Shown piece by piece: positions 17,073 to 46,873 of a DNA stretch of 48,961 nt (its first letter is position 1; each line of letters opens with the position of its first letter). Below the pieces are notes generated by a model. The model was not told the origin of the DNA. It searched no databases and saw only the letters and a program-made list of their open reading frames with translations. The stretch spans positions 1-48,961 of the forward strand of contig CANJNZ010000027.1 in assembly GCA_947476045.1 (NCBI GenBank), read 5' to 3'. Position numbers and translations under genes: made by a program. This DNA is from Chthoniobacteraceae bacterium (lineage in GTDB: Bacteria > Verrucomicrobiota > Verrucomicrobiia > Chthoniobacterales > Chthoniobacteraceae).

Positions 17073-20000
17073 TTATTCGTTCACGAAATTCACGTCGGGG
17101 CAGGTGACGCTGATGGCGGGCGGGAGGCTGGCGGCATCAAGCTGGACTGTGAATGTGTGACGGCCCGGTGCGATGGTGACGTCTGGTTTTGGATTGCTGG
17201 CGATGGCGAGAGGCGCGCCGTCGAGGAAGGCTCGCGTGATGCCGGTGAGATTGAGCCGCGTTTTCACCTCAGCGTCGTTGGTGAATGTCGTCTGCGCTAG
17301 GATGCTGTTGCCAGGCAGCAGCGTGGTGAGCGTTTCCTTCGTCAGGCGACCGTCGGCATAGGTGAGAGCCTTGATGCCGGGCTGCGTGATTTTTGTGAGA
17401 TCGCTGCCGGGGAAGAGCGACCACGTGCGGGCGGTGCCGGGCTTGGTGGCGTCGAAGGGGCCGGGGCGTCCGAGCTGTGTGAGGAAGGCGAGGAGGTCTT
17501 GTTTTTCCTGATCCTTGAGCGAGTCAATGAGGCCGGGAGGCATGAGGCTGCCTGTGCCTTCGCGCTTCACGATGTTCGCTTTTACGAGGGCGGTCTCGAT
17601 GCCGGGGCCGGCGCTGATGAATTGCTCGGTGGCGGTTTCGCGCGTGGGGATGCCGACGGTTTGCGTGCCGTCCTTCATGGTGAAAGTGAACGCGATGTAG
17701 CCCTCTTTCACCTTCGCAGCGGGATCGAGCACGCTTTCGATAATGTAGTCGAGCGGCGCGCTGGCTCCGAAGCTGGTGAAGTCGGGGCCGAACTTCCCGC
17801 CAGCACCGCCGATGGAGTGGCAGGCGGCGCAGCCGATGCGATGGTAAATTGCTTCGCCGTTCGCGGGTTTCCCATTCGCGGGAGCGCTGGCGGTGAGCGC
17901 GGCGATGTCGGCTTTCACGTCGCGCGTGGCTGTCGCGCCGGTAAGAGGGGTGAGGGCGGCGATGAGTTTGTCGCCACCGCGTCCGCGTTCGCGCGCGGCG
18001 CGGATACCGGCGGCTGCGACGTGTTTTGCGATGTTGGTGTTGTTGGGCACTGCGGCTGCGATGCGATCTGCGCCGTCTTTGACGTTGAGGATCCCGCGCC
18101 AGACAGTGAGTGCCGCGTCTTCGTTGGGTTGTGTGTTGAGGGCGCTCATCATGTTTCCGATGTTGAAATCGAGCGGTGCGAGAGCGACTGCTGCCTGACC
18201 TGCAATGGCGGGCGACTTCGAATCAGCGAGCAGTTTGCGAAGTGCGTCGCGCGCAGGTTCGTTGCCGATGTTGCGGAGTGCGTCGAATGCGCTGTCTGCG
18301 GCCTCGGCGTTGTTGGTGAGCGCGACGAGTCCGTTGACGGCTGCTGGAAGTTTCCATGCTCCCGCTAGGCGTGCGGCTGGCGCTGGTGCGGTGGCGAAAA
18401 GATCCAAGATGGAATCCAGCGCGAGGCCGGGGCGTGCGTTGCGCGTCTTTGCGGCACTGGCGAGTGCATCCATCGCGCGGACGAGTGCGGGTGCGTCGAG
18501 TTTCTTTTCCGTCACGGCTTTCCATAGCAAATCGAGTTCGCGTGGTGTGCCTGCCTGTCCGATGAGTTCGATCCAGGGGCCGCTGCCATCGCGCGGGATG
18601 CCATTTTTCTCGATGGAGGATGAGAGCGATTTGCTCACCATGTCGGCGGGAATATTTGCGAGTCCCCAAGCGAGCTGGCGCTGGCGGTCGGCGATGTCGG
18701 CCTTCCATTCGCCGTTGGCGAGCGCGGTGATCCAGACTTCGGCGAGGTCATTGATCGAGAGCCATGCAGCGTAGGTGTAATAGGGATCGCCGCCTTCGGT
18801 GTTCACGGCTGCTTCGAGGACGAGACCGGCATTTGCTGCGGTGGGATTTTTGCAAAGCGCACGCATGGCTTCGATGCGGACGCGCGGGTTCGGGTCTTTG
18901 ATGAGCGCGGCGGCTTCGGCGGGGTTGCGGCCTTTGGGCATCACGGGCGCGGGAATCGGCGAAAAGCTGCCCCATGCGAGTGCGGGTTTTCCTTTCGGCG
19001 CGAGACGCCAGATACGGCCGTGGACGTGGTCGCGGCGCGGGTCGCGGAAGTCCACTTCGCCGTGGTTGATGATCGGGTTTGTCCAGTCGGCGATGTAGAG
19101 CGCGCCGTCCGGTCCGAGCTTTAGATCGATTGGACGGAACGTGGCGTCGTTGGTGCGGATGAGGTCGGGCATCGCCTTGGTGACGAAGCCGGATTTCGGA
19201 TTCGCGCCTTGATTGAGATCGTTGATGGCGAAGCGGACGACGCGATGTGCGCGGAAGTCGTTTGTGATCGCGTTGCCCTGCCAGTCGTCGGGGAAGAGCG
19301 GGGAGCGGATGAGTTCGAGGCTGGCGAATTTTGGATAATTTCCGGGCGAGATGCTTTGGAGGATTTTCTTCGCGTTTTCGTAGGTGAAATACATCGCGCC
19401 GGGAATCGCCCACACGATGCCTTCGCCGCCTGCGCCGTCGGTGAGAAAGGAGTTGCCGTTCGCATCGAACTGGTGGCCCCACGGATTACAGCATCCACGG
19501 AACATGACCTCGACTTTCTCCGTGCGCGGGTCCCACGCGAGCACCCCGGCGCTGTTCAACCGCACGACGCCCCACGGCGTTTCGATGTGGCTGTGGATGT
19601 ATATGCTTTGGTTCATGTAGAGACGCCCATCGGGGCCCCAGCGAAGTGTGTGGAGCGTGTGGTGCGTGTCCTCGGTGCCGAAGCCGGAGAGCACGGCGCG
19701 GCGGCTGTCCGCGCGATTGTCGCCGTTGGTGTCGGTGAGTTCGAAAAGGTCTGTGGAAGCGGCGACGTAGGCGGTCTGGGATTTTGGCTTCGTATTTTTC
19801 GCAAAGGGTTCTTTATCCAAAACGGGCGCGACGCTGGCGGCGATGAGGAGGTCGGTGGCGAAGGTCGTGGTTTTGTCGGCTTTGCCATCGCGGTCGGTAT
19901 CTTCGAGGATCACGACTTTGTCGTCGGGATGTGCGCCGGGGGAGATCATCGGATAGACGGGCGAGCAGGCGACCCACAGGCGGCCTTTAGAGTCCCAATT

Positions 20001-21083
20001 CATGCCGACGGGCTTGGCGAGCAGTGGCGTCTCGGCCCAAAGCGTGAGTTCCATTCCATCGGCGACGGTGAAATTCGGCGGAGGAAGTTTGGCGACTTCG
20101 GGCGCGGCCTCGGGCTTCGGAGCTTCGACGACTTTTGGTTTTTCGCCGGGGTTCTTTTTGATGCGGTCAATCTCCGCCTCGGCCTCTGCGATGAGCGGAT
20201 CGAACTTCGGAATTTCGACGGCGTTTCTGCCCTGCTCGCCTTTACGGAAACCGAAAATGTAAGTGTGGTTCGCCGGGCGCCAGCGGTGGAAAAAGAGGTC
20301 GTTCTTTTTGAGGATGGCTGCGCGGAGAGCGGGCAGCGTAGTTTTGCCCCAGCCGAGTTTGACGGAGACATTAGCGGCAAAAAATGAGTGGCCGGGTTCG
20401 TTAAAATGGATGCCGTTGTCGGTGCGCTGAAATGTCTGTCCTTCTTGTTGCTCGAAGACATTGACGAATGTGGCACCGCGCTCCTTCGCCAGTTCCTCAA
20501 TCGCCTTCGTGAATTTTCCGAGCAGCGCGTTGTGCTCGGTGGGGTCGGGAAGTCCGGGGCGTGTCTTGCGCAAATCCTCATGGCGGATTGGCGAGAGCAG
20601 GACGAAGCGCACCTTCGTATCTGGCGCGGCTTTCGCGCTGATTTCCTGAATCGAATCCATGAGCGCGCCGAGTTGATTCTTAAACTCCGCCACGCCCGCG
20701 TCGCCGCGTGGGATTTGTCCGTAGCGGGTCGCGTCGTCATTTCCATAGAGCGCCTCCAGGCTCGACGCCATGCCGTAGCCGAGGATGCAGACGGTGGGAT
20801 TCACCGTGGCGATTTGTTCTTTCAAACGCACGAGGCCCTTCGGCGCGGGGTCGAACGAAGCGCGCGACCAGCCGAGCGGATTGTCGGCGGAGTAGGAGAG
20901 ATTGCGAACGGTGAAGTGGCGGTCGGGGAACTGCTCCTGCATCCGCGTTTCGAGATAGCCGAAGGTTCCTTCACGTTCGAGCAGCGTGTCGCCGAGCAGC
21001 AGCACGCGGTCGCCCTCCTTGATTTCAAAAGGCGCGGCGATGGCGGCGGTGACGAACGCGAGGAGAAGAATGATGGTTTTCAT
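17073..21083 (-). CDS. Secreted PVC-type protein: SGNH + dehydrogenase propeller + HEAT + cytochrome c
   Basis: A 1336-residue modular secreted protein from the ATG at 21083, which opens a signal peptide (MKTIILLLAFVTAAIAAP); an extension to 21152 is less likely. Residues about 18-260 form an SGNH/GDSL hydrolase-like domain with VLLLGDTLLE (block I) and NGIHFNEPGHSF (block V). Residues about 338-694 form the PVC membrane-bound dehydrogenase propeller (ADGMELTLWAETPLLA, WDSKGRLWVA). A HEAT-type region follows, then a c-type heme domain around residues 1060-1205 with CAACH (C1085, C1088, H1089) and a distal SLMPPG methionine. A beta-rich tail (1206-1336) is extra. It should act in the periplasm, passing electrons from an unknown substrate. 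Neighbours: divergent from the ferredoxin gene, upstream of the polysaccharide operon. Confidence 0.9.
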   Translation of the reverse strand: MKTIILLLAFVTAAIAAPFEIKEGDRVLLLGDTLLEREGTFGYLETRMQEQFPDRHFTVRNLSYSADNPLGWSRASFDPAPKGLVRLKEQIATVNPTVCILGYGMASSLEALYGNDDATRYGQIPRGDAGVAEFKNQLGALMDSIQEISAKAAPDTKVRFVLLSPIRHEDLRKTRPGLPDPTEHNALLGKFTKAIEELAKERGATFVNVFEQQEGQTFQRTDNGIHFNEPGHSFFAANVSVKLGWGKTTLPALRAAILKKNDLFFHRWRPANHTYIFGFRKGEQGRNAVEIPKFDPLIAEAEAEIDRIKKNPGEKPKVVEAPKPEAAPEVAKLPPPNFTVADGMELTLWAETPLLAKPVGMNWDSKGRLWVACSPVYPMISPGAHPDDKVVILEDTDRDGKADKTTTFATDLLIAASVAPVLDKEPFAKNTKPKSQTAYVAASTDLFELTDTNGDNRADSRRAVLSGFGTEDTHHTLHTLRWGPDGRLYMNQSIYIHSHIETPWGVVRLNSAGVLAWDPRTEKVEVMFRGCCNPWGHQFDANGNSFLTDGAGGEGIVWAIPGAMYFTYENAKKILQSISPGNYPKFASLELIRSPLFPDDWQGNAITNDFRAHRVVRFAINDLNQGANPKSGFVTKAMPDLIRTNDATFRPIDLKLGPDGALYIADWTNPIINHGEVDFRDPRRDHVHGRIWRLAPKGKPALAWGSFSPIPAPVMPKGRNPAEAAALIKDPNPRVRIEAMRALCKNPTAANAGLVLEAAVNTEGGDPYYTYAAWLSINDLAEVWITALANGEWKADIADRQRQLAWGLANIPADMVSKSLSSSIEKNGIPRDGSGPWIELIGQAGTPRELDLLWKAVTEKKLDAPALVRAMDALASAAKTRNARPGLALDSILDLFATAPAPAARLAGAWKLPAAVNGLVALTNNAEAADSAFDALRNIGNEPARDALRKLLADSKSPAIAGQAAVALAPLDFNIGNMMSALNTQPNEDAALTVWRGILNVKDGADRIAAAVPNNTNIAKHVAAAGIRAARERGRGGDKLIAALTPLTGATATRDVKADIAALTASAPANGKPANGEAIYHRIGCAACHSIGGAGGKFGPDFTSFGASAPLDYIIESVLDPAAKVKEGYIAFTFTMKDGTQTVGIPTRETATEQFISAGPGIETALVKANIVKREGTGSLMPPGLIDSLKDQEKQDLLAFLTQLGRPGPFDATKPGTARTWSLFPGSDLTKITQPGIKALTYADGRLTKETLTTLLPGNSILAQTTFTNDAEVKTRLNLTGITRAFLDGAPLAIASNPKPDVTIAPGRHTFTVQLDAASLPPAISVTCPDVNFVNE

Positions 21084-21159
21084 GGCGATAGGTATTTGCG
21101 AGGGGCGTGGGTTTTCAATGGCCGGATGAAATTCCGCAATGCGCAAATTCACATCCCGC

Positions 21160-31200: not shown

Positions 31201-34200
31201 TGAGTGCGAGCGGCTGGTAATCGCTGCCATAGGTGGCGCTGCCGATGATATCGAAATAAACGGGCAATGCGTTCGTGGTGTCGCCGGTGCGTGTGATGGT
31301 GAAGGTGCCCGTGTCCAGTCCCGCTTCGCTCGCGCTCGCATCCGTGGCGGCGACAGTCACGGTATTCGGCGGTGTCGGGAATGACGTGGTGGAAATCGGA
31401 TCCAAGTAGCTCGCCTCGATGGGCCGGTGCTGTGCGCCGCCGGGGAAGTCCACGCCGACCGCGAGATTGTCGCCGCCGCCGCCTTCCTTTTGAAGTGCCT
31501 CGATGTAGTAGCGCTGGCCCGCAGTGAGCGTGATCGCCGCGGATTTCTGGCTCGTAAATTTCGTCCACTGGCGGGAGCTGGTCCAGCTCGTCACCGAGGC
31601 AATTTTCACTTTATTCGCAGGCTGGTCGGTCGTGCTCAGCCACAGTTCCGAGTTGTCGTCGGAGGCGATGTAAAAAGTGTAAGCGCCGGTCGTGGGCGCG
31701 CGGAAGTAGCCGCGTGCGCGCTGACCGTAGTTGTCCTCGAAATCCGTGCCCGCTTCAAAGAGCGAGGTGAGCACGTAGCTGTAAGTCGGTGAATTCGGAT
31801 AGGCCGCGTTGCTTGTGAGGTTGGACACCGATGTGCCGCTGATCCCTTCCCAATGTTCCAGTGTAATACCGCCGACGACAGCCGCCGGCGCGGTCGCGGT
31901 GAAGTTCACATTCACAGCGGACGATCCGATGACCACGGGATTCGTGAACTGCGCATCGAGCGTCCATCCACTGTGCAACGCGCTCACCGTGTAGCTGCCC
32001 GCGCCGAGCGCGCCGAGTGTGTAGCGCCCATCGGCATCCGTGTAGGTGATGTGGCTGCTAGTGTCTTTGATCAGCACGTCCTGCACTGGCGTGCCGTCGC
32101 TTTTCGTCGCGCGTCCGCTGATGGTGAAATTCGTCGGCGTGCCCACACGAACCACGACGTTTTGCACCGCGGTCTTCCCCTTCATGTCGCTCACGGTGCA
32201 GCGCACATTGTAATCGCCCGCAGCGCTCCAGCTTTTGGTCTGTGTGGCTGAGTTGTCCACGCTCACATTGCTGCCGTCGCCAAAATCCCACGAGTAGGCC
32301 AGCGCGTCGCCATCGGGATCGGATGCCACCGCGGTCAGCGTGACCGATGTATTCACCGCCGGTGAAAAGTTGCTCGCCGTCACCACCGCCACCGGTTGGC
32401 TGTCGGCGAGCGTGCTGTTGAAATTCACCACCATGTCCACGTAGTCGTCCGGTGCCGTGCCGCCACGCGCGACTGTGGTGACGGTGATTCCCTGCTCCGC
32501 GTCATTGAAACTGCGCCCGACCAGCAACGATGCATCGGAATTTCCCGACGAAGTCAGCGGGTTCATGTCGAGCAGTTCGTCGTCGCCTTGCGACCAGCAA
32601 ATCATCGCGCCGTTGTCGGTCGCGAATGTGTGCGAAGTGCCGTTCCAGTTCGGGCGATATTCCGTGTAGTAAATGCGGTCGTCCTTTCGGATGCGCAGCG
32701 AATACGGATGCCCGGCGGTGAGCGTGACTTTGTCGGCGTTGTAGAGCCGGTAAGTGCCGCTGGTGTTCACCGTCACCACGTCGCTCGATTCGAGCCAGTG
32801 GAGTTCGTAACGTTCGAGCGTGTTATACTGATTCAGCCCCGCAGACCCCATCACGCTGTATTTGCTGCCGTATTCCACGTGAGTGCCCGCGCCGATGGGC
32901 GAGTCCGAGGTCGCATCCCAAAAGTTCGCGTGCCACAAGCCGAAATTGTGTCCCCATTCGTGCATATAAATACCGGCGCTGAAACATTTGATCCATGTGC
33001 CTTTTCCGCCGACGTAGCCGAGACCGCAGTAGTTGCCGAAGAGGCTGCTCGAAAAAACAATCGCATCGAAATCGAAGTTCGCCGTGTCGTAAGGGTGGTT
33101 GCCGCTTCCATCCACATACGCAGCGGCGACGGCGCGCCCCGCGCTCATGATCGCGTTGTCCGTGCCGTTTGCGGCATACCATGCTTCCGTCTGCGGCAGC
33201 ACGAGCGTGGGCGTGAAAGCAAACGTTCCCTCCAGTTTTCCGTAGGACCAGTCCGACCACTGATCCACGACCGTCTGCAACTGCGTCTGCATATTTGAAT
33301 CCGACGTGGGCTCGGCAGCTTGATCGGAAAAACGGACGCGAATCGCGAGGAAGGTTTTGTTTCCCTGCGTCCATGTCGCAGGCACGACCGGACTCACACC
33401 GCCCGAGTTGCCGCCGCCGCCTGCTGCGGCGACGAGTTGTCCTTCCGGAGTTTGTAACCACCGTCCGATGTGTCCGCCGCTGCAAAGCCATACAATCTTC
33501 GCGCCGGTATCCACGGCGGTCTCGTCGCCTTTGCTTTCCGTCGCTGCGCCGGAAATCGGGCAGACCGTCTCCACTTCGCCAAGCTGCGCGCGGAGGTCGG
33601 CGGCCTCTGCCTTTTCGAGCACCTCGTAACCTTCATCGCGCACCGCGAGCAGGCTTTTGCCATCCACCAGATTCACGCCCACGCCGAGGATGGGCGTTTG
33701 CGGACGCGAAATGTCCTTCAGCCGCTTTCCGTAGGTGTAGGCGCGGTATTCTTTCCCCGCGATACTCGCCGTCCGATAAACCGGTTCATCCACCGTGGTT
33801 CCCGGCAACGGTCGCACCGCGAGCACCATCAGATCACCGCGCCCGCTCACACGATGCTCGATGCGTTCCGCGATTTCCGGCGGCAACGCCTTGCGCAATT
33901 CATACGGCAACAGCGCATCAATCGCCGCCTTCGGATTTTGCCGGATGAGTGTCCCAATTGCTTCGCTCCGCGCTTTGGCGAGCGCGAGTCCCCCCGGGAG
34001 CATCGCCGTTTTTTCATCTGCGGACGCGGCCTCATAGCGCTCCGCCCAAGCCCGGAAAGCATCCAGTGCCGGTGCGAGTTGCGCGGGCGGAACTACCACC
34101 GCCGGCTTGCTTGCGGCGACGCGATTGGTCGCTCCAGAGCCCGTCGTGCCTTTTCCACCACAGCAATCACCAGCATCATGAGTCTCGCGAGTAGTGTGCG

Positions 34201-34366
34201 AAACCTTTCCGTCATCCTTCGTTTGCACCGCAGGCGTGCGCTCACTCTCCGTGTGTGCAGATTGCCCGGGCGATGGATTTTCTTTGGTTCGCAGGCACCA
34301 TTCAGCGAGCCACGCGCACGCCACCATGGTGATGAAAAAAATGATGGAACGAAAACGTGGAGACAT
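28232..34366 (-). CDS. Giant exported M6-like protease / adhesin with autotransporter-associated repeats
   Basis: A 2044-residue protein from the ATG at 34366, preferred because it opens a hydrophobic leader (FRSIIFFITMVACAWLAEW); a frame extension to 34504 is less likely. Order, approximate residues: N-terminal 400-residue region; peptidase M6/gametolysin-like domain with HEWGHNFGLWH (H469, E470, H473, H479) and Met-turn M506; PKD domain 655-740 (YSWDFGDGS); carboxypeptidase-regulatory-like domain 745-825; PA14 domain 828-978 (TFYIASDDNSELWLS); two Calx-beta domains 998-1215; autotransporter-associated beta-strand repeats to about 1890; a C-terminal DPDFDGLTNLAEFTLGG module typical of verrucomicrobial secreted proteins. 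Likely a surface-attached protease that binds glycan or protein. No autotransporter barrel is present, so secretion route is unknown. Confidence 0.88.
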   Translation of the reverse strand: MSPRFRSIIFFITMVACAWLAEWCLRTKENPSPGQSAHTESERTPAVQTKDDGKVSHTTRETHDAGDCCGGKGTTGSGATNRVAASKPAVVVPPAQLAPALDAFRAWAERYEAASADEKTAMLPGGLALAKARSEAIGTLIRQNPKAAIDALLPYELRKALPPEIAERIEHRVSGRGDLMVLAVRPLPGTTVDEPVYRTASIAGKEYRAYTYGKRLKDISRPQTPILGVGVNLVDGKSLLAVRDEGYEVLEKAEAADLRAQLGEVETVCPISGAATESKGDETAVDTGAKIVWLCSGGHIGRWLQTPEGQLVAAAGGGGNSGGVSPVVPATWTQGNKTFLAIRVRFSDQAAEPTSDSNMQTQLQTVVDQWSDWSYGKLEGTFAFTPTLVLPQTEAWYAANGTDNAIMSAGRAVAAAYVDGSGNHPYDTANFDFDAIVFSSSLFGNYCGLGYVGGKGTWIKCFSAGIYMHEWGHNFGLWHANFWDATSDSPIGAGTHVEYGSKYSVMGSAGLNQYNTLERYELHWLESSDVVTVNTSGTYRLYNADKVTLTAGHPYSLRIRKDDRIYYTEYRPNWNGTSHTFATDNGAMICWSQGDDELLDMNPLTSSGNSDASLLVGRSFNDAEQGITVTTVARGGTAPDDYVDMVVNFNSTLADSQPVAVVTASNFSPAVNTSVTLTAVASDPDGDALAYSWDFGDGSNVSVDNSATQTKSWSAAGDYNVRCTVSDMKGKTAVQNVVVRVGTPTNFTISGRATKSDGTPVQDVLIKDTSSHITYTDADGRYTLGALGAGSYTVSALHSGWTLDAQFTNPVVIGSSAVNVNFTATAPAAVVGGITLEHWEGISGTSVSNLTSNAAYPNSPTYSYVLTSLFEAGTDFEDNYGQRARGYFRAPTTGAYTFYIASDDNSELWLSTTDQPANKVKIASVTSWTSSRQWTKFTSQKSAAITLTAGQRYYIEALQKEGGGGDNLAVGVDFPGGAQHRPIEASYLDPISTTSFPTPPNTVTVAATDASASEAGLDTGTFTITRTGDTTNALPVYFDIIGSATYGSDYQPLALSATIPAGETSTTATVTPIDDAIPEINETVVLQLSPAVTYTLGANTNATVVIYDDEAVLVSIVATDATATETAGDTAIFTVTRTGDTTNVLNVNYTIGGTAVNGVNYAALTSPVTISAGQASAAITVTQTANGIVEPDKTVIATLAAGAGYTLGAPNTATVHILESANTSWMNAVNGNWSDATKWNPGRPESTGNASLVLNFNAAGAYTSTNDLNAGFLLNQINFGGSTATLAGNSLSLSSNGSVLPQLNQNSAAAVVIGNNLALTASTTVAGSGAGSVTLSGVLSGAGALTSSFPGTLTLTGIGSSISGAAATTAGALAINGGSLTTAASTRIDGGSTFSISNGGIINEQRLYIGETTNNNSVIVTGAGSKLLRGTGAGSGTHRLYLGMLSAGGNGGTGNSLTISNGGYVYSGGGTNDRSILNSSNNTVTVTGSGSQWFITNNNLYLASNANSTNNSILVSNGGTISMGGAQFVHIGAQTGCTGNSITVTGAGSTWALANSQIAIGSGGTTTGSGGTAAGTGNTLTVSSGGVLSNLNWLMVGNSTAAANNNTALVSGGGLLEINTGIVAGTGTATGNTVTVQTGGVLQFKTATPTITIAAGSSITMNSGTLSYKGVSSTSTNLLNGNAAASGAGIFTWTGGNTFRLDSSTETGGSNYTFANNLSAKNYTALELYGTSTMARAITLDGSHGGSLLLNGSTATIAGGVALTGTVTITANGTASSLTGIISGGGALTKIGTGALSLNSVNTYSGNTVVNAGTLTLADNAGLKFVVTNTSNTNITGSGVVTLNGDFTIDTSAVTLISGTWPLVNVATQTFGTTFTVTGGWSENSNVWTKTTGTQIWSFSEANGVLTLASTLTGFDAWANDPAQGLTPGVNDGPLDDPDFDGLTNLAEFTLGGAPMVASRSIQPTLKKTGGNMVFEYARHDQSLSPATTQVVEYSNDLVTWTAVTIPTTTSGNVTITPGSPSHHVTVTIPNATSETYGRLKVTK

Positions 34367-34596
34367 GAAGGGTTTTGGGATATTGGGCCGCTTTTCAGCC
34401 GCACTTGCTATGCCACGAATCGCAGCTCTCCCGGGTGAAGAAGGGGTTGCTGCGTGGGATTTGCGGGCGCTTTGTGGCGGGGCATCCCTTTCACTAGCAA
34501 ACATTCACTGCTGCGCCAGAGGCGATTTTCTTAAATTTGCGCACTAGGAATGACATCCAGCCTTGCGCAACGAAGCGCACCTGCTCATTCAAAATC

Positions 34597-37500
34597 ATGC
34601 TCACCTTCCATCGCGTTCTCTTCCTGTTCTTCACACTCGTCACTTCCATCGTTGCGCAGGCAGAGGTGGCTTTTCACGAAGGCGACACAGTTCTTTTCTA
34701 CGGCAACTCGATGGTCGAGCGGCTGTGTGAGCACGGGGAACTCGAAGCGATGGTCCAGCTCGCGCACCCGGCGATGAAATTGCATTTCCGCAGTCTCGCG
34801 TGGACGGGCGACGAGGTCGGCTACCGGCTGCGTCCCGAAGGCTACGAGGCTTACATGAAAGAACTGCTCAAGCAGTGGCCGGCGAAGGTCGTGGTCGTGG
34901 GCTTCGGGATGAATGAGTCGTTCGCAGGCGCGGCGGGACTGGCGGATTTCCGCAAGCAGCTCGGTATGTATCTCGATCAACTCGCGCGGTTGCATCCGGG
35001 TGCGCAGTTCGTGTTGCTCGCGCCGAGTGCGGTAGAGGCAGACGGGCAGGTGAACGATGTTCAATTGCGGAACCGCGATTTAGCTGCCTACGCGAATACC
35101 ATTGGTGAGGTCGCGAAAGCGCGTGGTGCAGTGTTTGTGGATTTATTCAGGGCCTTTCTCGACTTCGGCACGAGGGACGCGAAGGGGCCGCATCTGACCA
35201 ACAATGGCCTGCATCTTGGCGACACGGGTAATCGCCTGATGGCGCGAACCATCGCACGTGCGTTGATTGGCGATGCGGCGTTGGAAAAGGCGAACGCTTC
35301 TCGTATTGCGGAAGTGACGAAGGCCATCGCGCGAAAGAACTACTACGTCTCCGAGGTTGTCCGCCCGAAGAATGCCGACCTGTATTACGGTATCCGCAAG
35401 CGACAGAACGAACACGACGCGGAGATTCCGCGTTACTTCAAGATGATCGAGCTGACGGAGGCCGTTGTGCATGAACTGGCCGCGACGACGGGGAAGAAGT
35501 TCGCTGACATTCCTCTGCCGTGGCTGGAGCCGATGCCGCCGATTAAAGGCCACGATGACGGACGAAATACCGGAGTCATCAAGCCGCCAGCCGATGCGCA
35601 GGCGGAGTTCAAAGTTGCTGACGGATTCTCGGTGAATCTCTTCGCATCCGAGGTGGAGTTTCCTGATTTAAAAAACCCGGTGCAAATCGCGTTCGACGCG
35701 CGCGGTCGCTTGTGGGTCGTGACGATGCCGTCCTTCCCGCACACCGTGCCGGGGCTGCCGCCGCAGGACAAAATCATCGTCCTCGAAGACACCGACCACG
35801 ACGGCAAAGCGGACAAATGCACGACCTTCGCCGAAGGGCTCGACGCTCTCGATGGCGTCGCTTTCTCCGAGCTTGGCGTCATCGTTTCCGAGCAGCCGAA
35901 GCTCTATGTGATGAACGACACGAACGGCGACGGCAAAGCGGACACCAAGCGCGAGCTGCTGCGCGGCATTGACGTGACCGACTCGCACCACGGCGGAATG
36001 ATCGCGACCGATCCCATCGGCGACGTGCTGTTCTGCGACGGCGTGTTTCATCGCTCGCAAATCGAGACGCCGTTTGGCGTGGTGCGAGGAATTGACGCGA
36101 CGACCTACCGGCTGAATCCGCGCACCGGTCGCGTCGAGACCGAGTGGCAAAGTGCAACGCCGAACCCATGGAAGATCACCTACGACCGCACGGGGAATCT
36201 TTTTCAAATGTATGGCGACGGCATCCCGACCGACGCACTCCCGCTCACGTGGACACCGCTCGGCGTCTATCACCCGCATGGCTACGGCAACACCGGCAGC
36301 AACGGCAAAGGCTCCGGCATCGTGAGCATCTCCAGCCCGAACTTCCCCGACGAATATCAGCAGGGCATGGCGAGCGCTTCGCTGCTCGGCAACTACACCG
36401 TCTCGCTGTGGAAATACGATTACGACAAGGGCATGGTGAAGGGCTCGCAGAGGCTGGATGTGCTCCGTTCGCCAAACGCGGCCTTTCGTCCGGCGGATCT
36501 CGAGTTCGGCTTCGATGGTGCGCTCTACGTCTCGGACTTTTGCAGCCCAATCATCGGCCATGCGCAGCACCCGATGCGCGACCCGCATTGGGATCACGAG
36601 CACGGTCGCATCTGGCGCGTGGTGAATAATGCAAAGCCGGTGGTGAAAGACTTTCCGAAAATCGAAGGCGCGAGCGTGGCTGAGTTGCTGAAGCTTTTGC
36701 AGAGCGAGCAAAACATCGTGCGTCATCACGCACGAATAGAGCTACGCAAGAAAGGCGCAGCGGTATTGCCGGTTTTGGACAAATGGGTTGCCGCGCTTGA
36801 CCGCACGAAGCCCGAATTCAACCAGTGTGCTTTGGAAGCGCTCTTTGTCGCTGAAGGTCTAGGACAGACACGTCCCGCTCTGCTTGATGTGCTTTTGAAA
36901 TGCGAGGCACCGCTCTACCGCGCCGCTGCTGTGAGCATGATCCGCCGCCAAGCTGACCGGTTGCCGAACGTCACCGAGTTTCTCACCCGCATGGCCGCCG
37001 ACCCGCACCCGCGTGTGCAGATGGAAGTCGTGGATGCCGTCGCGCACCTTCGCCCCACGATGCCCGCCGTCGAGCAGGCACTGAATGCGCTCAAGACCAC
37101 TAACGGCGACGTGCAGCATATGCTCGCCGATTTGAAACACGGCACCAAACCCGCCAAGGGCCGTAGCGTTCCTGTTCTCGAAGTCGCGCCCGAAACACGC
37201 CTCACGCAATGGCTCGACGTGGGCAAAGGCACGCGTCGCACCTTCGTGCAGGCCGATGCCGGGCAACCCGCAGTGCTCGCCGTTCGACACGGCTACCTCG
37301 ATATCGTCGTCAACGGCGTGCAGCTTCTCTCCTCCGACTCGATGTGGATCAACGACCAGCAAGTGCAGCTCGACCTTCGCCCCGGTCTCAACGTGATAGA
37401 CATCACCTTCCGCAACGCGCGCGGCATCCCGGCAGTCTTCCTCTACGATCCCATCGGTCAGAAACTCGCCACCGCACGTCCCGCCGAGAATGCGGAAAGA

Positions 37501-37920
37501 CTCAGCGCACTAGCCGCTGAATTTGAAAAAGCCAATGCTGCCCTTGGCGACGCGCTCATCGTGCAAGCCGTGCCGAATCAAATGCAATTCGCGCCCAAGG
37601 AACTTCGCGTAAAAGCCGGGGCGAAAGTCCGCCTCATTTTCGAAAACCCAGATCTCATGCTGCACAATTTCGTGCTGCTCTCACCCGGAGCGGAGGACGA
37701 AGTCGGCACGCTTGCCGACAAACTCGCAGCCCAGCCCGACGGCCTCGCAAAAAACTACCTCCCCGATTCCAAAAAGATTCTGCAATCCACCCCGCTTGTG
37801 CAGCCGAAGCAAAAAGCCGAACTCGCTTTCACCGCCCCCGCAACGCCCGGCAACTACCCATACATTTGCACCTTCCCCGGCCACTGGCGCTCCATGCGCG
37901 GAGTGCTTGTCGTCGAATAG
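34597..37920 (+). CDS. Secreted PVC-type protein: SGNH + dehydrogenase propeller + HEAT + cupredoxin
   Basis: An 1107-residue exported protein from the ATG at 34597, chosen for its signal peptide (LFLFFTLVTSIVAQAEVA); an extension to 34537 is dropped. Residues to about 280 are SGNH-like (TVLFYGNSMVERL, NNGLHLGDTGNRLMA). The dehydrogenase propeller is at about 340-680 (ADGFSVNLFASEVEFPD, AFDARGRLWVV) with HEAT-type repeats to about 870. A beta domain follows, then a C-terminal type-1 copper (azurin/plastocyanin-like) domain at about 980-1107 with candidate ligands H1023 (LMLHNFVLL), C1091, H1096 and M1100 (YICTFPGHWRSMRG). It has no CxxCH heme motif, unlike its two relatives in this window. 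It should oxidise an unknown periplasmic substrate and pass electrons to copper. It starts a run of four secreted genes. Confidence 0.9.
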   Translation: MLTFHRVLFLFFTLVTSIVAQAEVAFHEGDTVLFYGNSMVERLCEHGELEAMVQLAHPAMKLHFRSLAWTGDEVGYRLRPEGYEAYMKELLKQWPAKVVVVGFGMNESFAGAAGLADFRKQLGMYLDQLARLHPGAQFVLLAPSAVEADGQVNDVQLRNRDLAAYANTIGEVAKARGAVFVDLFRAFLDFGTRDAKGPHLTNNGLHLGDTGNRLMARTIARALIGDAALEKANASRIAEVTKAIARKNYYVSEVVRPKNADLYYGIRKRQNEHDAEIPRYFKMIELTEAVVHELAATTGKKFADIPLPWLEPMPPIKGHDDGRNTGVIKPPADAQAEFKVADGFSVNLFASEVEFPDLKNPVQIAFDARGRLWVVTMPSFPHTVPGLPPQDKIIVLEDTDHDGKADKCTTFAEGLDALDGVAFSELGVIVSEQPKLYVMNDTNGDGKADTKRELLRGIDVTDSHHGGMIATDPIGDVLFCDGVFHRSQIETPFGVVRGIDATTYRLNPRTGRVETEWQSATPNPWKITYDRTGNLFQMYGDGIPTDALPLTWTPLGVYHPHGYGNTGSNGKGSGIVSISSPNFPDEYQQGMASASLLGNYTVSLWKYDYDKGMVKGSQRLDVLRSPNAAFRPADLEFGFDGALYVSDFCSPIIGHAQHPMRDPHWDHEHGRIWRVVNNAKPVVKDFPKIEGASVAELLKLLQSEQNIVRHHARIELRKKGAAVLPVLDKWVAALDRTKPEFNQCALEALFVAEGLGQTRPALLDVLLKCEAPLYRAAAVSMIRRQADRLPNVTEFLTRMAADPHPRVQMEVVDAVAHLRPTMPAVEQALNALKTTNGDVQHMLADLKHGTKPAKGRSVPVLEVAPETRLTQWLDVGKGTRRTFVQADAGQPAVLAVRHGYLDIVVNGVQLLSSDSMWINDQQVQLDLRPGLNVIDITFRNARGIPAVFLYDPIGQKLATARPAENAERLSALAAEFEKANAALGDALIVQAVPNQMQFAPKELRVKAGAKVRLIFENPDLMLHNFVLLSPGAEDEVGTLADKLAAQPDGLAKNYLPDSKKILQSTPLVQPKQKAELAFTAPATPGNYPYICTFPGHWRSMRGVLVVE

Positions 37921-37988: not shown

Positions 37989-39086
37989 ATGAAGCCGATC
38001 GTCATCAATAAAAGTAAGTTTCTCAAAACCATCGTAGCACGCGCCGCTCTCCTGCTCGTGTTGGCATCGACGGGTATCGCGGAGGATGCCAAGCCGGTTG
38101 TCGGCAAGGGGCCGCTGAAAATTTTCCTGCTCGCGGGTCAATCGAACATGGAGGGGCACGCGACCTTACCGACGATTGATTTTCTCGGCGAGGACCCGGA
38201 CCCGGCACGGGCGGCTTTGCTTAAAAAATTCAAGCCGGACGGCAAAACGCTCGTGACCCGTGATGACGTGTGGGTGGTGAGCAACGGCGCGCCTTTCGAC
38301 AAACTCCAGCCGGGCCTCGGTGCGCGGAAGGATGCTGCGACGCTCGGCGTGAAGATCGGGCCGGAATACGGATTCGGCTATTTCATGGGTGAGACGTTGG
38401 AGGAGCAGGTGCTTTTGATCAAAGTGGCGGAGGGCGGCACGAGCCTGCACCAAAGCTGGCGTCCGCCGAGTGCGGGGTCGCTGCCGAATGTAAAGCCCGA
38501 GGAAGTGGGCGAGATGTATCGTGCGCTGGTGCAGAACACACACGACACGGTGCGCGATTTAAAAAAACTCTTCCCCGCCTACGACGAAAAGGCCGGCTAT
38601 GAAATCGCGGGGCTCGTCTGGTTTCAGGGCTACAACGACATGTTCGACGAAACGGGTCGCAAGGAATACGGCAAAAACCTCGTGATGCTGATCAAGGATC
38701 TACGGAAGGAATTCAACGCGCCGAATATGAAAGTGGCCGTCGGTGTGATGGGCGTAAACGGCCCGCTCAACGAAGGTGCCATCAACCCCAAGCAGGCCGA
38801 CGTGCGAGCAGGACAGCGCTTCGTGAACACGGTCGAGGAGTTCAAAGGAAACGTGAAGGCGTTCGAGAGCGCGCCGCTGCTCCATCCGAAAGTGGTGGAA
38901 CTGACCGCTGGCGAATGGCTGCATACCCGCGATTTCAAAAAAGACCCGCACACCCCCGAGGAAAAAGCGCTGCTGCAACGCGCCACATCGAACATGGGCT
39001 TCCACTACAACGGCGAAGGCCGCTTCTTCATCCTGCTCGGAAAGCAATTCGCCGACACGATGCTGGAATTGATGAAGACGAAATGA
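37989..39086 (+). CDS. Secreted sialate/acetylxylan esterase-like protein (SASA domain)
   Basis: A 365-residue secreted esterase from the ATG at 37989; the frame reaches back to 37866 but overlaps the upstream gene end. A signal-like stretch (ARAALLLVLASTGIAED) follows a charged leader. The catalytic serine lies in LLAGQSNMEGHA (S52), the invariant block of the DUF303/SASA carbohydrate esterase family; VWFQGYNDMF and FHYNGEGRF (His about 339) complete the SGNH-type active site. Members remove acetyl groups from sialic acids or xylans. The stop overlaps the next start as ATGA. The substrate is likely an acetylated polysaccharide, by context with the sulfatase. Confidence 0.87.
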   Translation: MKPIVINKSKFLKTIVARAALLLVLASTGIAEDAKPVVGKGPLKIFLLAGQSNMEGHATLPTIDFLGEDPDPARAALLKKFKPDGKTLVTRDDVWVVSNGAPFDKLQPGLGARKDAATLGVKIGPEYGFGYFMGETLEEQVLLIKVAEGGTSLHQSWRPPSAGSLPNVKPEEVGEMYRALVQNTHDTVRDLKKLFPAYDEKAGYEIAGLVWFQGYNDMFDETGRKEYGKNLVMLIKDLRKEFNAPNMKVAVGVMGVNGPLNEGAINPKQADVRAGQRFVNTVEEFKGNVKAFESAPLLHPKVVELTAGEWLHTRDFKKDPHTPEEKALLQRATSNMGFHYNGEGRFFILLGKQFADTMLELMKTK

Positions 39087-41503
39087 GCCTTTTCATAAAA
39101 TGCAGGGTGGGTTTTTTTGAGACGTTCACTCGTATTTTAACGATGGTGCTGCTGGTAGCGGCGGTTTGTTTCGCTGATGCGGCGCAGCCTGCAGTGCCGC
39201 CGGATTTGACGAAGGAGCCGAAGGCGGCGGAGGGGAAGGGGGATTGGAATCTGGGGCCGACGGGGATGCGAGGGTGGATGTTTGTGAAGGACAATTACAC
39301 GGATGAGGCGCGGCAGATTTTGGTAACGAAAATTGACGCGGGCTCGCCTGCGGACGGGGTGATGGAGGTCGGCGATGTGATCCTCGGCGTGGCGGGGAAA
39401 CTTTTCAGCGAAGATGCGCGCCGGGTATTTGGCCGGGCGATTGACGGTGCGGAAAAGGATGGCGCGCTGGCGCTGATGGTGTGGCGCAAGGGCGAGCAGA
39501 AGGATGTGGTGGTGAAGCTGAAGGTGATGGGTTCCTATGCGGAGACGGCTCCGTATGATTGCGCGAAATCGCGGAAGATTTTGGAGGAAGGCTGCAAGCG
39601 CATCGTGGAGAACAAGGATTACGGGCGGTGTCTCGTCGGCTACCTCGCACTGCTGGCGTCGGGCGATCCGCAGTATGCCGAGTTGCTGAAAGCGAAGGCG
39701 CATGAGGTGGCTCCGCAGAATCCGCATTTCCCGATTGATAAATGGGTGCCCGGAAATCCCGGCGGCTGGATCACGGGCTACACGTGCGTCTTTCTCTCGG
39801 AATACTATCTCGCAACCGGCGACAAGTATGTGCTCCCGGCGATTCAGGAATACGCGCATTTCATCGCGCTGGGGCAAAGCCGCATCGGCACTTGGGGCTC
39901 GAACATGGCGTGGACCGATCTGAATGGCGGCGTGATTCACGGCAACATCCCCGGCTACGGCGCGCTGAATCAAGCGGGGCTCGTCTGCCACATGGGGCTG
40001 ATCCTCGCGACGAAGTGCGGCATCGAGGACAAGGACGGTGAAATCGCGGCAGCGCTGAAACGGGCGAATGATTTTCTGAGTTACTACGTGGGAAAGGGCA
40101 CGATTCCCTACGGCGATCACAACCCGACGCTGAATTGCCACGACGACAACGGGAAGAATTGTCAGGCGGCGCTCATCTTTGATCTGCAAGGGATGAAAGA
40201 AGGCTCGCAGTTTTACACGAAGCTGATCACGGCGTCATACGAAGACCGCGAGGAGGGGCACACGGGGAATCAATTCAGCCACCAATGGTCCGGGATGGGC
40301 GTGGCGCGCGGCGGGCCGAAAGCGGCGTCGGCTTTCCTCAAAGAGATGCGCTGGTATTACGATATGGCGCGCACGTGGAAGGGCGATTTTGTTTATCAGG
40401 GGCTCGGCGGCGGCGGTGGTGGATATTGGGATTCCACGACCGGCTACATGCTCACTTACGCGCTGTCGTTGCGGAAACTTTTCCTCACCGGCAAGGACGC
40501 GAAGTCGGAAACATGGCTGAGTGAAAAGGACGTGAAGGAGGCCATCGAAGCGGGGCGCAACATGCATTACGAAAAGCTGGATGTCCCGGCGCTGATGAAG
40601 GAACTGGGAAGCTGGTCGCTAGTCGTGCGCACGCGGGCTGCCGAGGCGATTGCGAAAAAAAAGGAGGACGTGACGCCTGCGCTGCTCCAACTGCTCGAAG
40701 GCAACGACGCTCAGGCGCGCATCGGCGCGTGTCAGGCGGTGAAGGAACTCAAGGCGCGCGGTGCCGCAGCCGTGCCCGTTTTGATCAAGCTGCTCGATCA
40801 CGACGACATCTGGCTCCGCGTCTGCGCCGCCGAAGCACTCGCGGGTATCGGCGAACCCGCACGCCCGGCCATCCCTGCGATGCTCAAAGCCTGTGCGCGT
40901 AAGGACCCCAAGGACCCTCGCGGCTTCCAGCGGCGCGGTCTCGCGTTTTCGCTCTTCTACCCGCGTGGCGCACTTGGCGGCGATGGATTGCTGGCCCGTT
41001 CCATCGAGGGCGTTGACCGCAGCCTGCTTTATCCCGCCATCCGCAGCGTAGCCACGACCGACGACGGACGCGCTCGCGGCTGCCTCCGCTCCGCCTACCA
41101 ATTCCTCACGCTCGACGACGTGCGCGCACTAGCACCGGACATCGTGAAATCCATCGCCGAAAAAGCCCCCAGCGGAGAAATGTTCGCCGGTGGCGTCCGC
41201 CTCGCAGGCGTGAAATTGCTCACGAAATACCGCATCAAAGAAGGAATCCCGCTCGCCTTCACCGCGATGGACTGGCGCAACTGGGGAGCCGGCGAGCGCA
41301 TCGCCGTCTGCCTCGACGCGCTCAAGGAATACGGCGCCCACGCACTGCCCGTGCTCCGGGAAATCGAGCGCACATGGACCGTGGACGAGGCCACCAGCCG
41401 CGGCCTCACCCCGCAAATCGCCAAGCTCCGCGAAATCATCACCGCCGCCGAAGCCGACAAAAACCCGCCCGCATTGATCAGCCTGAAAGCAGAAGCTCAA
41501 TAA
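39083..41503 (+). CDS. Secreted PDZ + helical-barrel + HEAT protein (DUF6288-like)
   Basis: An 806-residue exported protein, start chosen at 39083 because it overlaps the esterase stop as ATGA; a Met at 39143 could also begin the signal. The order is: signal, a PDZ-like domain (GMRGWMFVKDNY, IDAGSPADGVMEVGDVILGV; about residues 55-150), an alpha-helical barrel-like region of about 300 residues with GGWITGYTCVFLSEYYLATG and FSHQWSGMGVARGGPKAASA, then HEAT-type repeats (ARIGACQAVKELKARGAAA, WLRVCAAEALAGIGEPARP). It matches what I recall of the DUF6288 group of PVC genomes. No enzymatic motif is identified. The coupling with the esterase suggests a role in the same surface process. Confidence 0.78.
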   Translation: MSLFIKCRVGFFETFTRILTMVLLVAAVCFADAAQPAVPPDLTKEPKAAEGKGDWNLGPTGMRGWMFVKDNYTDEARQILVTKIDAGSPADGVMEVGDVILGVAGKLFSEDARRVFGRAIDGAEKDGALALMVWRKGEQKDVVVKLKVMGSYAETAPYDCAKSRKILEEGCKRIVENKDYGRCLVGYLALLASGDPQYAELLKAKAHEVAPQNPHFPIDKWVPGNPGGWITGYTCVFLSEYYLATGDKYVLPAIQEYAHFIALGQSRIGTWGSNMAWTDLNGGVIHGNIPGYGALNQAGLVCHMGLILATKCGIEDKDGEIAAALKRANDFLSYYVGKGTIPYGDHNPTLNCHDDNGKNCQAALIFDLQGMKEGSQFYTKLITASYEDREEGHTGNQFSHQWSGMGVARGGPKAASAFLKEMRWYYDMARTWKGDFVYQGLGGGGGGYWDSTTGYMLTYALSLRKLFLTGKDAKSETWLSEKDVKEAIEAGRNMHYEKLDVPALMKELGSWSLVVRTRAAEAIAKKKEDVTPALLQLLEGNDAQARIGACQAVKELKARGAAAVPVLIKLLDHDDIWLRVCAAEALAGIGEPARPAIPAMLKACARKDPKDPRGFQRRGLAFSLFYPRGALGGDGLLARSIEGVDRSLLYPAIRSVATTDDGRARGCLRSAYQFLTLDDVRALAPDIVKSIAEKAPSGEMFAGGVRLAGVKLLTKYRIKEGIPLAFTAMDWRNWGAGERIAVCLDALKEYGAHALPVLREIERTWTVDEATSRGLTPQIAKLREIITAAEADKNPPALISLKAEAQ

Positions 41504-43171: not shown

Positions 43172-46100
43172 TCAATGCACAGGCGCGGCGAGTTGGGCTT
43201 TCTTTTCAGGCGTAAATTTCCCCTCTTCCGGCGGGGCTAGCACATACCAGAGCAGGTCGCGAAGCGCGTCGTCCGCCATCGCTCCAAAGCCGGTGGGCAT
43301 CACGCTTTGGTGCGTGTTTTCCATCTTGGTGATGTCGCCGCGCGCGACGACTTCGCGACGTCCGCCGATTCCGAGCAGCGTGACTTGCGTGGGCGTGTCC
43401 TCCACGACGCGGCCCGAGAGCGTGCGCTGATCCTTCGTCTGCACGATGATGTTTTCGTAGCCGTTACCGATGATTTGGTCGGGCGCGATGACGTTGGCGA
43501 GCAATGCATCGAGGTTGCTGCGCCCGCTGCCGGTGAGGTCGGGGCCGACCTCCTGTCCGCTGCCGAGGAATTTGTGGCAGGTCGCGCACGTCGCGGCGAA
43601 GAGCTGTTTGCCTTTGGCTAAATCCGGCTCGCCCGCGAGGACGATGGCGCGCTTGGCGGCGATGAGCGCCTTGGTGTCGGCGTTGGGTTCGTTCCATGTG
43701 CCGAGCAGTTGCGTGGCGCGTGCTTTGAGTGCCGCGTTCGTGGCGAAGTAGCGGCGCGCAGTTGCTGGGATGTTGTTCGCTGGAATTTGTTTCGCCTCCA
43801 CTGCATCGAGCAGCTTCACGGCCCAGTCGGCGCGGGAAATCATCACTTCCGCAGCGGCGGACTTCACGATGGGACTGGCGCTGTTCCATCTGGCGATGAT
43901 GAGATTTGCGAAATCCTTGCCGCCCATCTCTCCAGCCGCACGGAGGACTTCGATGGATAGCGCGTCTGAATTTGTGACGCCCAGCAAAGTGAGGATCGTC
44001 TCGCGGGCTTGCTGGTGTTTGAGTTTGCGCACGGTCTGAATGGCGGCGATGCGCTTGTCGTCCTCCCTGTTGTGATCCAAAGCCAGAGCCATCTGCATAT
44101 TTTCGGCTTGGACATTCCCCCACAACGTCGCGAGTCGCGCCGATTGATCGCGCACGGCGTTGTTCGCACTCTTGGCCCAAAACTCGAAGAACGGTGAGGC
44201 ATCCGTTTCCTTCGGCAAAACTGCGCCGGCCTGCTGCGCCTTCAACATTCCTTCGAGCGCGCGGGCGACGAGCGCATCGTCGGTTTTGATTTTGTCGAGG
44301 AAAGCGAGCAGCCGATCCATGTTTTCAGGATTGCGCGTGTCGGTGATGCGGCGCGCGGCTTTGTAGGTGAGAGTTTCCGAGAGGGGCTTGGTGTCGGGAG
44401 CGAGTTTGGCGAGCCACGGGAGCCAGTTGTCCGGACTGCTGCTCAACCACGGTTCGAGCGCCATCCAGATGGAAAACGCGAGCTGCTTGTCGGCGGACTT
44501 ACTTGCGCGAAGCAGCGCGGTCATCGCTTTGCGCCAGCCATCATCATCGGCTTCAGTCACGCGTCCCTTGTCTATGGTCAAATACGGCACCGCGCATTTC
44601 CGCAGACTCACAGCCACCGCCAGTCGAACCATCGGCTCTTCGTCGCCAGCTAATTGAATCATCGGCTCAGAGCCGTGGTCTGTTGTCCCTGCTATATGTC
44701 GTGCGAAAATTTCCGCCGATAGCGCGCGCATCTCCGGTTGCTTGGATTTGGCCAGTTCGCTGATGAACTTCGGCAGTGTCTCTCGATCCCCTTCAGGATC
44801 GTAGAGCGTTTTTTCCGCCGCCAACGTCGCCAGCGCTCGTCGCGTTGCGACTGGCCCTTCCTTTTTAGCGCGCGCGAAAATATCGGACGGCAGTTTCACA
44901 TCGTTTTTTTCCAAAAGAATCTGCAACGCGTGGCGCTGCTGCCAACTGTTCTTGTCGTAAAGCCGCTCAATCAGTTCCTTCGTCGTCAGCTTCGCCAAAT
45001 CCATGTCCTTCCTCGGGCGCGAGCCGAGTGGCGCGGTGCCATCCTTCGCGTCGCGGTGGACGATCCGCCAGATTCTTCCCTTCTCGCGATCCACGCCTTC
45101 GGGATTCGCCATCGCGTTTTGATAGCACGGATATTTGTCGCACCAGTCCATCACCCACAGGAAACCATCGGGCCCGGTTTGGATGCTGACGGGGCGGAAC
45201 CACCCGTCATTTGCCCGCAGGAAATCGCGCACCGGGCTGGCCTTGAACGTCGCACCCGCAGGCTCCACCTTCTCCTCGTGGATGGAGTTGTCGTGGATGT
45301 TGCCGAAGAACAAATGCCCGTGCGTGTCCGCCGGATAACGCCCGCCCTGGTAAATCTGAAAGCCCGCATACGCAGCGCGGAAATGTTTGTGATTCACGAT
45401 GCTCGGCAGCAGCTCGTATGCGTAGGGATTTTCGGGCGCGCCGCCCTGTCGCTGGTAAATACCGCCGGGCGCGAGATGAAAGAGATGATCTATCACACAC
45501 GCCTCCACGAACCAGTTCCCCGCCGCGTCATAGTCGCAGCCCCACGGATTGCTCGTCCCGTCGGCATAGACCTCGTGCTCGGTTGCACTCACTTCATAGG
45601 AACCTTGAGTGACGCCCGGCTGTCCCGGCACTTCCTTACCGTTTAGGCCAATCCTCACCCGATAAAGCCCCGCATTCAGCGTGTTCCCTTTCTCCCTCGG
45701 CTCCGTCGGGCGATGCACCTTCGAGTTGGTGAAAACCCCGTGCGTGAAATACATCCAGCCATCCGGCCCCCACATAAAACTGTTCAGCAACTCATGCCTG
45801 TCCTCCAGCCCGAAGCCCGTCAGCACCGCCTTGTATTCATCCGCCTTGTCGTCGCCATTCGTATCGCGGAAGAAAAAAAGATTCGGCGCCTGCCCGATGA
45901 ACACCCCGCTGTGCCCGCACAGAATCCCCGTTGCCAGATTCAGCCCCTCCACGAACACCGTCCGCTTGTCCGCCACGCCGTCATTATCCGTATCCTCCAA
46001 AATCACCACCCGGTCGCGCGGCGAATCCGCACCCGCCGCCACCACCGGATGCCACTCCTCATCCGTCGCCGTCTTGCTGTAATCATTCGGATGCTTGCTC

Positions 46101-46360
46101 CCCATCGGATACTCGTAAGCCTCCACCACCCACAGCCGCCCGCGATGATCCCAGGCCATCGCCACCGGATTCACAATCATCGGCTCGCTCGCAAAAATCC
46201 GCACTTCATAGCCCTCCGGCACCGTCATCTTCTTAATGGCCTCCTCCACCGTCGGGCACGGAGTAGTCGCCGGGGCGTGATTTCCCGTCAGTTCCTTCGC
46301 GTGGGAAAAAGCGGCGCTCGCAGCGAGTGCCATGCAGTAAAAAAGGGGCGACAATTTCAT
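43172..46360 (-). CDS. Secreted PVC-type protein: dehydrogenase propeller + HEAT + cytochrome c
   Basis: A 1062-residue exported protein from the ATG at 46360 (signal MKLSPLFYCMALAASAAFSH); an extension to 46462 is not supported. There is no SGNH domain. The dehydrogenase propeller begins near residue 42 (PEGYEVRIFASEPMIVNPVA, WDHRGRLWVVEA), followed by repeated VVILEDTDNDGVADK and FVEGLNLATG blocks, then HEAT-type repeats from about 460 to 900. A C-terminal c-type heme domain carries CATCH (C925, C928, H929) with a distal HQSVMPTGFG methionine. The heme-binding type matches TIGR02603-like PVC proteins. It presumably oxidises a sugar-like substrate in the periplasm; the substrate is unknown. 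It converges on the sulfatase gene. Confidence 0.9.
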   Translation of the reverse strand: MKLSPLFYCMALAASAAFSHAKELTGNHAPATTPCPTVEEAIKKMTVPEGYEVRIFASEPMIVNPVAMAWDHRGRLWVVEAYEYPMGSKHPNDYSKTATDEEWHPVVAAGADSPRDRVVILEDTDNDGVADKRTVFVEGLNLATGILCGHSGVFIGQAPNLFFFRDTNGDDKADEYKAVLTGFGLEDRHELLNSFMWGPDGWMYFTHGVFTNSKVHRPTEPREKGNTLNAGLYRVRIGLNGKEVPGQPGVTQGSYEVSATEHEVYADGTSNPWGCDYDAAGNWFVEACVIDHLFHLAPGGIYQRQGGAPENPYAYELLPSIVNHKHFRAAYAGFQIYQGGRYPADTHGHLFFGNIHDNSIHEEKVEPAGATFKASPVRDFLRANDGWFRPVSIQTGPDGFLWVMDWCDKYPCYQNAMANPEGVDREKGRIWRIVHRDAKDGTAPLGSRPRKDMDLAKLTTKELIERLYDKNSWQQRHALQILLEKNDVKLPSDIFARAKKEGPVATRRALATLAAEKTLYDPEGDRETLPKFISELAKSKQPEMRALSAEIFARHIAGTTDHGSEPMIQLAGDEEPMVRLAVAVSLRKCAVPYLTIDKGRVTEADDDGWRKAMTALLRASKSADKQLAFSIWMALEPWLSSSPDNWLPWLAKLAPDTKPLSETLTYKAARRITDTRNPENMDRLLAFLDKIKTDDALVARALEGMLKAQQAGAVLPKETDASPFFEFWAKSANNAVRDQSARLATLWGNVQAENMQMALALDHNREDDKRIAAIQTVRKLKHQQARETILTLLGVTNSDALSIEVLRAAGEMGGKDFANLIIARWNSASPIVKSAAAEVMISRADWAVKLLDAVEAKQIPANNIPATARRYFATNAALKARATQLLGTWNEPNADTKALIAAKRAIVLAGEPDLAKGKQLFAATCATCHKFLGSGQEVGPDLTGSGRSNLDALLANVIAPDQIIGNGYENIIVQTKDQRTLSGRVVEDTPTQVTLLGIGGRREVVARGDITKMENTHQSVMPTGFGAMADDALRDLLWYVLAPPEEGKFTPEKKAQLAAPVH

Positions 46361-46873
46361 CGCGCGCAAATCGCACTTCACCGCAGAGCCGTCAACGCGC
46401 AAACGAAATTGCGGCGAGCTGCGAAAGGTGATCCGTGATCGGTGTTCCCTGCCCGCGCACACCGATCACCGATCACGCCCCGCTCACCACTTGATCCTCT
46501 TCTTTGCGCCATTGCGCGAAGAAAAAACCGCGCTTGCCGCGGCAACGCACCATCCCGCCCATCCCCAAAAACCTAAAAATTCCGTCTCTCTTTTTGGACA
46601 GGATGAGGATTTGCATGATTAACAGGACGGTCCTCGCGCCAAGGCGCAAAGGCGCATCACGTCGGCAGATTAAGAAAGTGGCATATCAGCCCCACACGCC
46701 AACGCGTCCCCAATACGCCAAGATGAAAAGCAAAACCTTTCCGCTCGACAGAAAACTCACACTCCATTGCCGTCGGCATTCGTAAATACCACAACCATGA
46801 CATCCTTCATTCACCAAAAATCCCCGTCTCTTGCCAGTATAGTTGGATGCTAGGCGACTAACACAGGTTTTTT
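46361..46873. other. Repeat-rich intergenic region
   Basis: About 510 bp with no gene I can support. It contains an imperfect 18-bp hairpin (46428-46445 with 46459-46476, one mismatch) built of GATCGGTG-type words, and scattered degenerate repeats such as GCCAAGGCGCAAAGGCGC near 46638-46655. Small frames at 46428-46785 are not supported. Composition becomes more AT-rich towards the methyltransferase, suggesting a boundary of foreign DNA. Confidence 0.55.
46428..46476. repeat. Imperfect inverted repeat
   Basis: Arms 46428-46445 (GTGATCCGTGATCGGTGT) and 46459-46476 (ACACCGATCACCGATCAC) pair over 18 bp with one mismatch and a 13-base loop. It lies just upstream of the cytochrome gene's start, so it could act in its leader or be a dispersed repeat. 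Confidence 0.7.

Follow-up and report, generated by a model that had tools for sequence, protein, structure and literature searches.

The copper-bearing gene and its neighbours

The window, i.e., the whole stretch of 48,961 nucleotides that was analysed, carries at 34597-37920 a gene whose open frame starts from ATG and encodes a protein of 1107 residues with a signal-like N-terminus (Table 1). In this protein, Pfam detected Lipase_GDSL_2 (residues 35-214), DUF7133 (331-537 plus a second stretch), HEAT_2 (760-833) and Copper-bind (991-1107), in that order. The protein scored 181 bits with PF23500 (DUF7133) against a cut-off of 27 and 174.2 bits with the NCBIfam model TIGR02604 against a cut-off of 122.2, and it thus belongs to the DUF7133/TIGR02604 propeller family. 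When the frame was scanned for a heme module, neither a CxxCH nor a match to TIGR02603 was found, and H1023, C1091, H1096 and M1100 were at the positions given in the initial annotation. The AlphaFold2 model of the mature protein, made with 25 relatives, had a mean pLDDT of 83, and its Foldseek matches in the PDB include SGNH proteins of the acetylxylan-esterase type. In the SGNH domain S38, G71, N106 and H206 are present and N203 replaces the usual Asp; the family alignment showed that in the relatives the catalytic Ser is often replaced by Gly or Thr, and Asp by Asn.

Table 1. Features of the copper-bearing gene and of its two paralogs in the window
Feature	Position	Strand	Basis or remark
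Whole gene: SGNH, DUF7133 propeller, HEAT, beta-sandwich, cupredoxin	34597..37920	+	1107 aa, secreted
Signal-peptide-like N-terminus, residues 1-22	34597..34662	+	Read from sequence
SGNH/GDSL domain, about residues 25-240	34669..35316	+	Pfam, structure match, family alignment
DUF7133 six-bladed propeller, about residues 329-680, PQQ sugar-dehydrogenase-like fold	35581..36636	+	
Helical HEAT repeats, about residues 694-850	36676..37146	+	Pfam and model
Beta-rich linker domain, about residues 873-955	37213..37461	+	Secondary structure of model
Auracyanin-like type-1 copper domain, residues 984-1107	37546..37917	+	Pfam, sequence and structure matches
Copper ligand H1023 (predicted)	37663..37665	+	Alignment to auracyanin
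Predicted copper-binding loop C1091-TFPG-H1096-WRS-M1100	37867..37896	+	Alignment to auracyanin
Paralog, SGNH-propeller with CxxCH heme domain	17073..21152	-	Pfam, TIGR02603, CxxCH scan
Paralog, propeller-HEAT with CxxCH heme domain	43172..46462	-	Pfam, TIGR02603, CxxCH scan

The two paralogs had been described as sharing the propeller and HEAT architecture with the copper protein and as ending in a CxxCH heme domain. Each does have one CxxCH, which lies inside a TIGR02603 domain, but in the 17073-21152 protein this domain is at about residues 1096-1226 of 1359 and not at the very end. Likewise, the propeller is common to all three proteins but no HEAT was found by Pfam in the 17073-21152 protein, which shares with the copper protein an SGNH (GDSL) domain at the N-terminus, a domain that the initial annotation had not reported.

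Divergent from the copper gene is a gene for a secreted protein of 2090 aa with PKD, PA14, Calx-beta and passenger-associated repeat domains (28232-34504, minus strand). Downstream are a SASA esterase gene (37989-39086), a gene for a DUF6288-HEAT protein (38915-41503, plus strand) and a sulfatase gene (41609-42991). The SASA esterase, the DUF6288 gene and the divergent upstream gene did not turn up at the ortholog loci that were fetched, which speaks against their being conserved operon partners; sulfatases were found near two of these loci. Further away, the minus strand encodes a Lipid_desat family protein (22669-23295; 1e-36), a family of plasmalogen-forming desaturases, and, near the end of the window, a serine recombinase with Resolvase and Recombinase domains (47666-48949) that possibly belongs to a mobile element.

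The C-terminal copper domain

The C-terminus of the 34597-37920 protein matched Pfam Copper-bind (PF00127) with an E-value of 2e-10 and auracyanin A (2aan) with 3e-17 over 113 residues. H1023, C1091, H1096 and M1100 align with the copper ligands of auracyanin, and they have the C-x4-H-x3-M spacing of azurin and auracyanin. When the domain was folded alone the pLDDT was 97.3 and the predicted structure superposed on auracyanin A with a Z-score of 20.4 and an rmsd of 1.3 A over 118 residues, and the best Foldseek matches in the PDB were auracyanins with TM-scores of 0.86-0.88 on the target. The cupredoxin fold that had been expected for this C-terminus is thus what the prediction gives, and the superposition and the alignment to auracyanin and azurin support the predicted convergence of the four ligands in space. 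All four ligands are kept in 123 of 123 related copper domains collected; up to 80 of these were obtained with a search pattern that already prescribes the Cys and FPG, which leaves the two His and the Met as the independent evidence there. Fold and ligands together support a complete auracyanin-type type-1 copper cupredoxin that is predicted to bind copper. It resembles auracyanin A and azurin in fold, in the four ligands and in their equal spacing but, whereas those are small separate carriers, this one is fused in a single chain to an enzyme-like part of about 980 residues.

A different role for this domain would be that of a CopI-like module for binding, handling or sensing copper, in a protein for copper storage, scavenging or delivery at the surface. 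A partial match to the CopI model NF051440 was indeed obtained, but it was weak (2e-07) and far below the cut-off of the model, whereas the best matches, auracyanin and azurin, are electron carriers. Moreover, the domain occupies the position of the cytochrome of its relatives and in four of them, described below, it is in series with a cytochrome. We therefore regard copper handling as quite improbable.

Copper and heme carriers in the DUF7133 family

The 34597-37920 protein resembles the PVC-type heme-binding CxxCH proteins (TIGR02604/TIGR02603) in its propeller family, its HEAT repeats, its secretion and in having a C-terminal redox module; those proteins, however, end in a TIGR02603 heme domain, and here there is a copper domain instead. 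About 25 open frames of the source genome contain the 30 matches to PF23500, and nearly all full-length DUF7133 members fetched from it have one CxxCH after the propeller. There are about 18 heme versions, and the copper motif is in exactly two of the propeller proteins fetched from this genome, namely, the 34597-37920 protein and a second, encoded on contig C26 (L040:1949-5962). Plastocyanin substitutes for cytochrome c6, and the initial annotation had proposed that in a like manner the copper version may be used when heme or iron is scarce. That copper and heme versions coexist in single genomes fits this proposal. However, heme versions are far more numerous than copper ones in the source genome, near-identical or like-for-like pairs of heme and copper versions were not seen, the nearest of the sampled heme paralogs being only about 35% identical to the 34597-37920 protein in the propeller, and the copper lineages are broad and retain copper, while some members retain both carriers. 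A role in scarcity is thus very unlikely and the proposal is not upheld.

The copper domain was found in 47 of 288 genomes of the phylum Verrucomicrobiota, and at least 588 places in named genomes encode it. When 88 propeller proteins from 16 Verrucomicrobiota genomes were classified, 26 had the copper domain, 59 had a CxxCH after the propeller, three had neither and none had both; since the copper domain itself served in part to select the sample, the ratio of copper to heme is not a frequency. A redox module is therefore present in 85 of the 88; two of the three others are stand-alone propellers beside a multiheme or a copper partner gene and the third is at a contig end. Such two-gene arrangements occur in the source genome. 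On contig C1 (L042:6214-9496) a gene for a copper-PA14 protein of 602 aa directly adjoins, on the same strand, a gene for a stand-alone propeller of 494 aa, and on contig C79 (L055:2924-7195) a stand-alone propeller gene adjoins one for a PA14 protein with five CxxCH; the C-terminal domains of the two PA14 partners match with 33% identity (3e-28). The carrier is therefore exchanged also at the level of genes within one genome.

Among 80 loci fetched from the named genomes, four propeller proteins have both carriers, first the copper domain and then a CxxCH domain. One of them (L176) is an ortholog of the 34597-37920 protein and the other three (L235, L236 and L247) are from Planctomycetota; in L245 a heme domain is on the N-terminal side. 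The view that copper stands in place of the cytochrome therefore holds for the sampled Verrucomicrobiota, where no protein had both, but not as a rule: strict mutual exclusion, which we had considered, is contradicted by these tandem proteins and was dropped, and the relation of copper to heme is more than simple replacement. Their arrangement in tandem is suggestive of a relay from one carrier to the other. The copper domain also ends ThuA-DUF7133-HEAT proteins of Bacteroidota (L190) and is fused to DUF6797-propeller proteins and, in a sugar-redox context, to a 3-keto-disaccharide hydrolase-PA14 protein (L121). The cupredoxin proteins at L121:7689-10427, L122:6819-9581 and L123:6931-9366 are 73-75% identical to one another, and at L124 a neighbouring gene of its own encodes the hydrolase-like part.

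In the propeller tree of 82 proteins the copper label needs five changes, all of them forced by starred branches. One copper protein within a heme clade (L104) forms a long branch, and a more careful tree of 65 proteins was made without it and the other long branches. In that tree four changes were needed, a number that was constant over the bootstrap range, and a single copper clade was rejected (p-AU 0.0001). The heme pairs L151/L155 and L145/L150 sit deep inside copper clades. A quick tree of 138 proteins that included other phyla, made with a simpler model, required 8 to 9 changes of the copper label. Because the trees are unrooted, gain of a carrier is indistinguishable in them from its loss, and loss of one carrier from an ancestor with copper plus heme is possible. 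The repeated switches in the propeller trees and the two-gene version of the exchange support the conclusion that the copper and heme carriers are exchangeable in the DUF7133 family, as had been anticipated from the window, and that they switched at least four times. The nearest precedent for this exchange is in the three-domain copper nitrite reductases, in which a cytochrome c or a cupredoxin is fused to one enzyme core (PMC6400189). The likeness is that the carrier fused to one core may be of the heme or of the type-1 copper kind; the core enzyme is unrelated and the position of the carrier varies in the nitrite reductases.

The propeller and its probable function

The best structural matches of the propeller in the model were the AA12 and Coprinopsis PQQ pyranose dehydrogenases (Z-scores of 25.8 and 25.7) and the soluble PQQ glucose dehydrogenases (23-24), which makes it a six-bladed propeller of the GSDH type, although other propeller families are not far below, the SMP30/lactonase and NHL propellers being slightly behind at about 22. 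Copper and heme members share H464, N523 and R371 without exception and R631 almost without exception. N523 and R631 align, in a weak profile match, with the region of the PQQ site of E. coli Asd, and H464 aligns by eye with the His that is catalytic in soluble glucose dehydrogenase; these three are the only PQQ-contact positions that are apparently conserved, and Lys377 of that enzyme seems to have no counterpart in the propeller. PqqC was not found in a search of the genome in which a control search was likewise silent. The conserved residues favour a quinoprotein-type dehydrogenase, the word dehydrogenase being what we infer from the fold and these few residues. With the AA12/Coprinopsis enzyme the likeness is in the six-bladed fold; the propeller of the 34597-37920 protein is about 16% identical to it, apparently keeps the PQQ site only in part, and differs in that the AA12 side has no copper domain. 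The fungal PQQ pyranose dehydrogenase also has a fused heme domain.

The propeller could instead be a hydrolase, a lactonase or a binding domain, in a scaffold that processes glycans with the SGNH esterase and in which the redox module would be modulating or minor. The closeness of the SMP30/lactonase propellers would agree with this, as would Lac161_ORF7 (AGW45552), a propeller-HEAT-cytochrome protein from a Chthoniobacter-like insert that is reported to hydrolyse lactose, its beta-galactosidase activity having been assayed via released glucose (PMC5342196). Lac161_ORF7 is related by architecture (TIGR02604-HEAT-cytochrome), and it is a heme version, whereas the 34597-37920 protein is a copper version. 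Since the assay tracked glucose release, the published result could, on our reading, also stem from oxidation followed by elimination. That a redox module accompanies nearly all the sampled propellers, and that of those without one two have a multiheme or copper partner gene next to them and the third is cut by a contig end, also argues against a hydrolase, which we hold to be unlikely.

We consider it probable that the 34597-37920 protein, a member of the DUF7133/TIGR02604 family, is a secreted oxidoreductase in which a PQQ-type propeller acts on sugars and passes electrons to an outlet that is exchangeable, copper or heme, in the family. The propeller would be a PQQ-type (or related quinone or metal) dehydrogenase for sugars or glycosides, and the electrons would exit via the built-in C-terminal carrier, which would be a monoheme cytochrome c in most members and an auracyanin-like type-1 copper site in the branch of the 34597-37920 protein. 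Because the carrier was exchanged repeatedly and some members have copper and heme in tandem, both carriers may feed one common electron chain in the periplasm or at the surface. Copper binding, electron transfer, sugar oxidation and the cofactor are thus all proposed here for the 34597-37920 protein. An extension of this, which we offer tentatively and think somewhat doubtful, is that a single extracellular system for oxidative glycan degradation exists in two wirings, one with the copper members and one with the heme members. The propeller would oxidise the sugar ring, possibly to the 3-keto form, a partner of the 3-keto-disaccharide-hydrolase type would then cleave the oxidised sugar, and the electron outlet would be the exchangeable copper or heme or a relay from copper to heme within a single chain.

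In the literature searched, the coverage of which was partial, no description of a copper version of the DUF7133 family was found, and the parts seen of a survey of azurin distribution, which treats azurin genes, do not mention DUF7133-cupredoxin fusions (PMC8779525). The copper-bearing group is sizeable, with members in Verrucomicrobiota, Planctomycetota, Bacteroidota and Gemmatimonadota, and the NCBI model name 'PVC-type heme-binding CxxCH protein' misfits it, the 34597-37920 protein included. Both the repeated exchange of carriers and the existence of proteins with copper and heme in tandem speak for redox work by DUF7133 proteins, and such a role narrows the hunt for their substrate and their partner.
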